A stretch of DNA of 40,109 nt. Origin: a virus. The notes beneath the pieces are model-generated. The model had not been told where the DNA came from, did no database searches, and saw only the letters and a list, made by a program, of their open reading frames with translations. Shown here piece after piece: positions 7,439-9,513 of the stretch; the first letter of the stretch is position 1; each line of letters begins with the position of its first letter. The DNA lies in IMG/VR virus record IMGVR_UViG_3300048834_001327, positions 1 through 40,109 of that record; one strand, 5' to 3'. Made by a program: the position numbers and the translations under genes.

Positions 7439-8362
7439 CTACCCTGGTGGGCCGCGGCTGCGCTTGCCACCCTTCAGCATAGTTTCGACCACAGCCACGC
7501 GCCGATGGGCATCTTGCAAATCATCTTCGACAAGCTGCAAATATTGGCGCAAGACGGTCAAATCGGCGTGCCCCATCAACTTTGCCAAGACAAAGATATT
7601 CATCCCACCCCGCAGCGAATTGAGCGCAAAGGTGCGGCGCAACGCATGGGCGGTCAGTGTGGGTGTCTGTGCGATTCGGCGTAGACGTTGCAGGGCTTGC
7701 GCCAAGCCGTAGTAAGTCAACCGTTCGCCGTCGGTCTGCGAGACAAAGAGCGCCGGGTCATCGCTTTGGCGTTCAAGATGCAAATACTTTGCCACTTGCT
7801 TACGCGTATAGGGGCCGATGTAACTTACCCGGTCTTTTTGCCCCTTGCCTCGGCGTACCATCACCGCGCCGGTCGCCCTATCCACATCGGCTAAGTCGAG
7901 CGCGCATAGTTCCGACGCCCGCAAACCACTATCCAGCAAGGTCAGCACGATAGCGCGGTCGCGCGCCGATGTACACGCCGCCAAGACGCGTTGAAGCTCC
8001 GTCGCAGTTAGCGCCGGTAAGATTTTCTTTTCAAGTCGGGGCATCTGTACGCGGGCAAATGGGGAAATGTCTAGCAGTTCGTCGCGTACACAGTAATTGA
8101 GAAAGGCACGAATGGCGCGCGCAAAGCCATGCACATACGCGCTCGACAGCTTGCGCCGCGCCAAATCCACAATGAAGCGTCGGATGGTGGGCGCGCCCAC
8201 GTCACCCAGCGCCGGGGCGTCATGCTCGACACACCAAGCCACAAATAGCCCAAGCCGCCCACGATAGAAGCGCAACGTGTGGGCGGTAAATTGGCGCGCT
8301 TCGCAGTCAAGCAAAAACAGGTCGAGCGCGTCTACAAGTGAAAGCTTCTGTTGTGGGGCCAA
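7439..8362 (-). CDS. Tyrosine recombinase/integrase 1 (left element)
   Basis: 307 residues with the XerC/D-like two-domain form: N-terminal SAM-like domain (8-95, HTLRFYRGRLGLFVAWC) and catalytic domain. All active-site residues are visible: R148 (LDSGLRASEL), K173 (RGKGQKDR), H239-x2-R242 (HALRR), H265 (MGHAD) and the nucleophile Y274 (LRQYLQL). The start is taken as TTG 8362, because an in-frame stop is directly upstream and alignment with integrase 2 begins at the same point. Its ribosome site AAGGCGG lies within a hairpin. It should integrate or excise the left element, probably at the adjacent tRNA-Lys. Confidence 0.93.
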   Translation of the reverse strand: MAPQQKLSLVDALDLFLLDCEARQFTAHTLRFYRGRLGLFVAWCVEHDAPALGDVGAPTIRRFIVDLARRKLSSAYVHGFARAIRAFLNYCVRDELLDISPFARVQMPRLEKKILPALTATELQRVLAACTSARDRAIVLTLLDSGLRASELCALDLADVDRATGAVMVRRGKGQKDRVSYIGPYTRKQVAKYLHLERQSDDPALFVSQTDGERLTYYGLAQALQRLRRIAQTPTLTAHALRRTFALNSLRGGMNIFVLAKLMGHADLTVLRQYLQLVEDDLQDAHRRVAVVETMLKGGKRSRGPPG

Positions 8363-8394
8363 TTAAAAACCGCCTTACCCATGTAGTAAGACGG
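8363..8394 (-). promoter_or_regulatory. Hairpin containing the integrase 1 ribosome site
   Basis: On the minus strand CCGTCTTAC (8386-8394) pairs with GTAAGGCGG (8370-8378; one mismatch) around a 7-base loop, followed by TTTTTAAT and the TTG start. The 3' arm is the ribosome site. It is shaped like an intrinsic terminator and also like a translational lock. Confidence 0.55.
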
Positions 8395-8431
8395 AATATT
8401 GTCCCTTACCCGCCCCATCTGGCCCCCAGCT

Positions 8432-8461
8432 TTGGCGTTGGCGCGGGGGCTGTGCTATACT
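8432..8461 (+). promoter_or_regulatory. tRNA-Lys promoter
   Basis: TTGGCG at 8432-8437, 18-base spacer, TATACT at 8456-8461 with a TG two bases before it (extended -10). The predicted start is about 8 bases before the tRNA. Confidence 0.7.
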
Positions 8462-8476
8462 CACGCCAGCCGATTT

Positions 8477-8548
8477 GGGTCCCTAGCTCAATGGCAGAGC
8501 AGCGGCCTTTTAAGCCGCGGGTTCTGGGTTCGAGTCCCAGGGGGCTCA
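8477..8548 (+). tRNA. tRNA-Lys (UUU anticodon)
   Basis: A 72-base cloverleaf: acceptor GGGTCCC/GGGGCTC (two G-U pairs), D stem GCTC/GAGC, anticodon stem GCGGC/GCCGC with loop CTTTTAA (anticodon at 8509-8511), T stem CTGGG/CCCAG with loop TTCGAGT, and discriminator A at 8548. CCA is not encoded. It lies between two divergent integrase genes and is the obvious attachment site. No second copy of its 3' half was found in the window. Confidence 0.95.
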
Positions 8549-8619
8549 CTAATTGTATGCGGCGTCTGACGTGGCACTAGATGCTGTGGTTTTGCCCTAC
8601 ACAGAGAGGCAGAATCGCC

Positions 8620-9513
8620 ATGTCAGACCCGCGTACTCCCCTAAAATCCGCCCTTGACCTCTATCTGCTGGAAGCCCAGAGCCGCCGCCACACGGCCCAC
8701 ACGCTGCGCTTCTATCGCGGCCGGCTGTCACTATTTGTCCGATGGTGCAAAGACCACGGGATCGAGACGCTGCCGGACCTGACCCACCATCACATTCGCC
8801 AGTATCTCATTGACCTCGATAACCGCGGCGTTTCCTCGGCGTACCTGCACAGCCACGCCCGCGCCCTGCGTGCGTTCTGCAATTACTGCCTACGTGACGA
8901 TCTGCTGACCGTCTCCCCGTTCGCTAAGGTTCAAATGCCCCGGCTTGCCAAAAAGGTGTTGCCCGCTATCTCAGCCGGAGACATCGACAAGATTCTGCGC
9001 GCCTGCCAGCATGAGCGAGACCGGGCCATCATCTATGTGATGCTTGACAGCGGCGTGCGGGCGTCCGAACTCTGCGCGCTGACGGTCGGCGATCTCGATC
9101 TGGCGACTGGGGCCGTCACCGTCCACGAGGGCAAAGGCCAAAAGGACCGGACGACCTACATCGGTGCCAAGACCCGCAAGGCCGTACTGCGCTACTTCAT
9201 CAAAGAGCGAGGCGGCACGCCCCCCAGTCGCGAACCGCTGTTCATGCGCCAGGAAGACGACGGCGGCCATATGGAGTATGACGGCCTCAAGCAGTTAATG
9301 CGGCGGCTGCGGGACGCCAGCGGCGTCAAGTTCAGCGCCCATGCGCTGCGCAGAACCTTTGCGATCAACAGTCTACGCAACGGCATGAACGTCTATGTGT
9401 TGGCGCGGCTGATGGGCCATGCCGACATCACGGTCCTGCGTGCTTACCTGGAAATCCTCGCCGAAGACCTGCAATCTGCCGCTGCCAAGTTCGGCGTGGT
9501 CGACCGATTGTAA
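8620..9513 (+). CDS. Tyrosine recombinase/integrase 2 (prophage side)
   Basis: 297 residues, homologous along its whole length to integrase 1 (shared TAHTLRFYRGRL, LDSG.RASELCAL, GKGQKDR, AHALRRTFA.NSLR, LMGHAD). Catalytic set: R147, K172, H241, R244, H267, Y276. The start is ATG 8620, after GAGAGG; the frame is open from 8581, but the upstream ATG lacks a site. It lies 71 bases beyond the tRNA in the same direction and could be read from the tRNA promoter. It is the likely integrase of the phage genome to its right. Confidence 0.94.
   Translation: MSDPRTPLKSALDLYLLEAQSRRHTAHTLRFYRGRLSLFVRWCKDHGIETLPDLTHHHIRQYLIDLDNRGVSSAYLHSHARALRAFCNYCLRDDLLTVSPFAKVQMPRLAKKVLPAISAGDIDKILRACQHERDRAIIYVMLDSGVRASELCALTVGDLDLATGAVTVHEGKGQKDRTTYIGAKTRKAVLRYFIKERGGTPPSREPLFMRQEDDGGHMEYDGLKQLMRRLRDASGVKFSAHALRRTFAINSLRNGMNVYVLARLMGHADITVLRAYLEILAEDLQSAAAKFGVVDRL

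Follow-up and report, generated by a model that had tools for sequence, protein, structure and literature searches.

A tRNA-Lys gene flanked by the sister integrases of two mobile elements that apparently share it

tRNA genes are usually seen as one-sided docking sites, of which mobile elements use the 3' half while the host promoter is kept. Ordinary tandem integration at the 3' end of a tRNA gene leaves both integrases 3' of the gene and in the same orientation. In the Islander collection, a displaced 5' fragment was present in 159 of 3919 tDNA islands (4%), and 125 tandem arrays were counted, each within one tDNA, their members carrying their own tDNA fragment and integrase (PMC4383910).

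The window analysed here is the whole IMG/VR record IMGVR_UViG_3300048834_001327 (40,109 bases). As in the Islander tandem arrays, a single tRNA gene holds two islands, and both have their own integrase. The open-access text searched described neither a mixed 5'/3' pair across one tRNA nor a tRNA with an island on either side, and on the basis of these searches the mixed pair is new as far as the open-access literature shows. The left element, E1, resembles 5'-fragment tDNA islands in having a tyrosine integrase and an intact tRNA at one end, with the 5' fragment at the other end in its relatives; it differs in that the tRNA is shared with a 3'-type prophage, and the integrases of the two are sisters. 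The right element, E2, resembles classic 3'-half temperate phages, with the integrase directly downstream of the tRNA, siphovirus genes and a repressor found at the far end. It differs in that the upstream half and the promoter of its target apparently come from another mobile element.

Layout around the tRNA-Lys gene

The central part of the locus comprises the following features.
7439-8362, minus strand: int1, the E1 tyrosine recombinase, located 5' of the tRNA (Pfam and PHROG match, catalytic alignment)
8370-8394, minus strand: terminator-like hairpin upstream of int1
8432-8461, plus strand: tRNA promoter TTGGCG-18-TATACT (extended -10), probably supplied by E1, by analogy with relatives
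8477-8549, plus strand: tRNA-Lys(ttt), putative composite attachment site
8507-8513, plus strand: anticodon loop CTTTTAA, candidate crossover (overlap) region for both integrases; the att repeats found in relatives have one of their limits about here
8581-9513, plus strand: int2, the phage tyrosine recombinase, located 3' of the tRNA (Pfam and PHROG match, catalytic alignment); the start may be 8620

The integrases diverge, pointing away from the tRNA-Lys between them. int1, next to the promoter of an intact tRNA, has the position of a 5'-fragment island integrase; int2, immediately 3' of the tRNA on the same strand, is placed as in a 3'-fragment prophage. Both matched Pfam Phage_integrase (int1 2e-27, int2 3e-30) and PHROG 1. 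The initial annotation had reported two homologous integrases with full catalytic sets around the tRNA-Lys, and the comparison bore this out: they were 56% identical over 291 aa, and R148, H239, R242, H265 and Y274 (int1 numbering), together with the lysines K173/K176, were invariant in an eight-member alignment. Due to this homology, the locus contains a 56-nt inverted repeat (8232-8287/8692-8747). Most family integrases with genomic context lie within ~350 bp of a tRNA or tRNA half, so the placement of int1 and int2 is not a matter of chance. Used as protein queries against viral contigs, int1 and int2 retrieved no relatives.

The first 72 nt of the tRNA-Lys are identical to the chromosomal tRNA-Lys of Caldilineaceae bacterium SJ28 (a MAG), and from 8438 onward the upstream promoter region is conserved in native Caldilineaceae tRNA-Lys loci. 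The gene is therefore host-type, and the host probably belongs in or near the Caldilineaceae (Chloroflexota). Within the window, all matches to the tRNA region were 13 nt or shorter, so the window contains no att pair. An exact scan of viral contigs for the tRNA 3' half found none.

The join between int1, tRNA and int2 rests on one metagenomic contig, which crosses a possible 70-120 bp repeat. Contigs of related genomes often end at tRNA-Lys (G001:C78, G041:C86, G041:C155, G028:C262), as repeats or mixed occupancy would cause. E1 and the phage could thus have occupied tRNA-Lys in different cells and been linked by the assembler via the tRNA. We regard such a chimera as unlikely, since the contig runs through with promoter, tRNA and both integrases intact, and the expected att polarity of each element holds separately.

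The two neighbouring elements

The genes to the left and right of the integrases are listed below.
1-8430, minus strand: E1, a PrimPol integrative element of which the right-hand part is present, the contig end cutting off the left
1034-1274: direct and inverted TTGACCGTCAG repeats beside PrimPol, candidate replication origin (iterons)
1321-4002, minus strand: PrimPol, 893 aa (PF09250, 1.7e-38; PF08707, PriCT_2, 1.1e-14)
3999-4433, minus strand: p144, small protein common to 5'-type elements, with 31-47% identical homologs in L247, L249, L341, L350, L351 and others
4539-4754, minus strand: ribbon-helix-helix-like DNA-binding protein, weak match (PHROG 10190, 2.6e-4; Pfam sub-threshold)
4905-5639, minus strand: regulator with LuxR-type HTH (PF00196, 1.5e-8)
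9641-9675: operator-like palindromes of the CTACTnnnnAGTAGG type, read by eye; similar ones beside the phage repressor in contig L171 tie int2 to the phage
17658-40109, minus strand: phage virion, lysis and RusA genes, continuing ~8.7 kb past 40109

E1 meets the host-like tRNA promoter sequence between 8395 and ~8438. Its gene content agreed with the first description of the left genes: a PrimPol, the TTGACCGTCAG repeats and regulators were present, and no virion genes were found among the ORFs scanned in this truncated, 8.4-kb part. The C-terminal half of the PrimPol is 71% identical to a homolog in a Caldilineaceae-family genome (G038), and a protein scan of viral contigs gave nothing beyond one 29% partial match. 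Contig scans found no leftward extension of E1. Outside the iterons, E1 has two pairs of short direct repeats (595-623/935-963, 90%; 5858-5891/6270-6303, 85%).

The right element is a temperate siphovirus, to which int2 belongs. Matches in the right part included TerL, portal, major head, head-tail adaptor, major tail and endolysin proteins. Contig L002, from a different IMG/VR sample, was identical to window positions 26795-40109 and added 5.3 kb encoding a DnaG-like primase, an AAA/DnaB-like ATPase and part of a DNA methylase. L171 overlapped L002 at 99.98% and contributed a further 3.4 kb, with a SNF2-helicase/methylase protein, a Cro-like HTH protein and a divergent repressor-like HTH protein. 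Joined, the three sequences give a phage of at least 40 kb from tRNA to repressor, with TerL, portal, head, tail, lysis, repressor and integrase genes. The siphovirus recognized earlier on the right-hand side was thus substantiated as temperate, and the two overlapping contigs carry it beyond the window. Its right junction was absent from the window, L002 and L171, which stop at the repressor, and a scan for further contigs found none. One phage protein, of 866 aa (L171 1936-4536), fuses a SNF2-type helicase with an N6/N4 DNA methylase. At L171 8838-9112, 275 bp absent from L002 and the window are followed by a second ~108-bp copy at the same place, possibly a small duplication or an assembly error.

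Composition and gene content support E1 as a small, plasmid-like mobile element separate from the phage. The tetranucleotide distance between E1 and the phage was 0.30-0.355, versus 0.15-0.21 among phage blocks, and homologs of E1 genes were found in small stand-alone PrimPol elements of other genomes. These data bear on whether the whole locus could be a single element, namely a phage or plasmid-prophage in circular form, with the complete tRNA-Lys in its attP and two integrases. Phages that carry tRNAs are known (PMC10865867), and divergent integrases flank a tRNA 3' half in G001:C42 and G645:C26. A single element is nonetheless very unlikely given the distinct composition of E1 and the occurrence of its genes elsewhere. 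In addition, the phage itself encodes a replication module (DnaG-like primase and AAA/DnaB-like ATPase, besides RusA and repressor), and the operator-like sites, as read by eye, tie int2's side alone to the phage repressor.

Attachment polarity among relatives

All collected loci of the integrase family were tallied by adjacency, counting integrase neighbourhoods, not mapped islands. The majority lay 3' of a tRNA, in its orientation. The 3'-type comprised 60 loci with an intact tRNA and 6 at an isolated same-strand 3' half; the 5'-type comprised 19 loci 5' of an intact tRNA and 11 at an isolated same-strand 5' half. The remaining loci were at an opposite-strand 3' fragment (3), had a longer, unclassified match (4), lacked a tRNA (33) or came without context (3). 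The 5'-type share was therefore 30 of the 96 classified loci (~31%). Set against the 4% of Islander, the ~30% in the int1/int2 family was measured differently, by integrase adjacency instead of mapped islands.

Relatives of int2 lie on the usual 3' side of the tRNA. In eight Anaerolineae genomes, relatives of int1 lie 5' of an intact tRNA, in elements flanked by identical copies of the 5' half of that tRNA. These and further mapped cases are given here, with repeat limits in tRNA numbering.
G287:C12 (686-kb contig), tRNA-Leu: 119-bp identical repeats from promoter to position 39, 9.95-kb element, integrase adjoining the promoter
G589, tRNA-Leu: repeat -76..40
G553, tRNA-Leu: repeat -38..40
G633, tRNA-Thr: repeat -82..39
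G641, tRNA-Leu: repeat -59..40
G657, tRNA-Arg: repeat -29..38
G732 (3.1-Mb contig), tRNA-Met: repeat -50..39
G044, tRNA-Met: repeat -12..41, the two ends on separate contigs; by eye, a sigma-70-like promoter was recognized between integrase and tRNA
G028, tRNA-Asn: whole tRNA repeated, -44..76, 12.8 kb
G572 (G572:C6, L342 178-4298), tRNA-Lys(ttt), the target as in the window: whole-tRNA repeat -13..72, ~4 kb, integrase on the 5' side
G259: truncated 5' half -1..44, 7.3 kb, trigger factor gene adjoining the intact tRNA
G044, tRNA-Arg positions 27-76: classic 3' att within the integrase family

All eight half-tRNA repeats stop within tRNA positions 38-41, on the final base of the anticodon loop or shortly after it, and seven of them include 29-82 nt of upstream sequence. 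Six of the elements (G589, G553, G633, G641, G657, G732) are ~8.5-10.9 kb long, with 100% identical repeats of 68-122 bp. A truncated 5' half at the integrase, with the intact tRNA at the other end of the element, was found in G259, G633, G462 (two), G403, G397 and G659. The relatives are MAG-based, so that assembly errors are possible, and several of the repeats lie inside contigs measuring between 200 kb and 3.1 Mb. Genome-wide searches for a second att copy found none for G153 or G311; at several further 5'-side loci the retrieved sequence contained no repeat, or the contig was too short for a decision.

Several 5'-type elements have a second tyrosine recombinase at the opposite end (L341, L343, L346, L347, L350, L351, L254); in five elements this enzyme shares ~68% identity with its counterpart in G287 (L254), and in G633 (L346) only 31%. 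At G001:C42 (L108 2292-4322) and G645:C26 162221-164404 (L300/L301), the tRNA 3' half between the divergent integrases is not accompanied by a 5' half, and these pairs resemble the attP of a circular or tandem element. Each divergent integrase of G001 is followed by a second, convergent one. The ~4-kb element of G572 is among the smallest relatives seen. The tRNA-Arg of G153:C14 (L250 5582-8162) was considered as a second doubly flanked tRNA and rejected: a family integrase lies on its 5' side, the 3'-side integrase is only a distant relative, and no att repeat was found.

The initial annotation had proposed a phylogeny of the two integrases. In a 62-row tree (quick IQ-TREE search, SH-aLRT support), int1 and int2 were sisters (support 92). 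The nine labelled 5'-type rows were scattered among 3'-type ones, and the best tree (45 labelled rows, some labels derived from adjacency) requires no fewer than 7 switches between the 3' and 5' types. Polarity in this integrase family therefore seems to switch easily. A single clade of 5'-side integrases with one polarity change was also considered; the 7 changes on the best tree speak against it.

A probable shared tRNA and the satellite question

We consider it likely that two unrelated elements share the tRNA-Lys, E1 with the promoter and 5' half and the phage with the 3' half. int1 and int2 lie on opposite sides because E1 seems to have the reverse polarity. The sister integrases would both cross over in the anticodon loop, with cuts at the edges of CTTTTAA (8507-8513). 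The phage would have integrated in the usual way, supplying the 3' half of the tRNA-Lys, with int2 by the 3' end. E1 would have integrated with opposite polarity, bringing the promoter and the 5' half, which would account for int1 lying just upstream of the promoter. The intact tRNA-Lys in the window would then be a composite of two mobile elements. The host 5' half is predicted to be displaced beyond the left end of the window, as a copy of ~8440-8513, and the host 3' half past the right end of the phage, as a copy of ~8507-8548 beyond the repressor. Since the window sequences are identical to the host tRNA, the origin of each half is not readable in the window; we infer it, like the crossover point, from the relatives.

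The earlier idea of tandem elements at one tRNA holds insofar as two different elements flank the tRNA-Lys; it fails as a plain tandem, E1 being on the 5' side. From this position, and by the precedent of relatives with promoter and 5' half, the outer att copy of E1 is expected to be the 5' half, not the tRNA 3' half that had been proposed. No outer att copies were found in the window, L002 or L171, and a scan for further contigs found none. Neither a single outer att pair for both halves nor the tRNA on a free phage was observed; no contig reaches the outer junctions.

The boundary of E1 is not visible in the window, and together with the missing second copies for G153 and G311 this would also fit an E1 inserted at an unrelated site just 5' of the tRNA promoter, with no connection to the tRNA. 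This is highly improbable, as the att repeats of ten 5'-side relatives include the tRNA or its 5' half and the nearest relative of int1 in the tree uses the identical tRNA target. An E1 integrase aimed at an intergenic site is likewise much less likely in view of the tRNA-containing att repeats of relatives.

The int1/int2 family often uses both sides of tRNA genes, and the two polarities apparently can share one gene. A shared tRNA site would double the docking capacity, and a 5'-type insertion would put the transcription of an essential tRNA under the promoter of a mobile element. Elements of the 5' and 3' types whose integrases are close have been mapped here and are material for testing what decides polarity.

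As had been proposed for the left half, with an integrative plasmid as the alternative, E1 resembles PICI-like satellites: it is small, and its truncated 8.4-kb segment has an integrase, regulators and a primase and, in the scanned part, no virion structural genes. It differs in its 5' att polarity, and no TerS-like or other packaging gene was found in the sequenced segment. A comparison with actinomycete-type integrative conjugative elements (AICEs), which have an FtsK/TraB translocase besides PrimPol and integrase, found PrimPol and integrase in E1 and no FtsK match among the scanned ORFs of the truncated element. A bolder reading, which we find doubtful, is that a satellite and its helper each hold half of the tRNA through sister integrases of opposite polarity, so that excision would swap the promoter or the 3' half, an arrangement that would recur through ready polarity switching.

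The relatives, for which family-library scans covered part of each element's proteins, yielded TerS-like HTH proteins in G287 (PHROG 2538, 1.9e-12), G259 (2.2e-8), G641, G732, G659 and one G633 element, for which Pfam mainly gives transposase-type HTH. TerS-like genes in several relatives hint at phage satellites, and for E1 itself this status is only suggested. Homologs of p144 were found in 5'-side elements (G589, G657, G732, G287, G028) and in those of the truncated-5'-half type (G397, G633), and PrimPol matches in G641, G259 and G659, among others.
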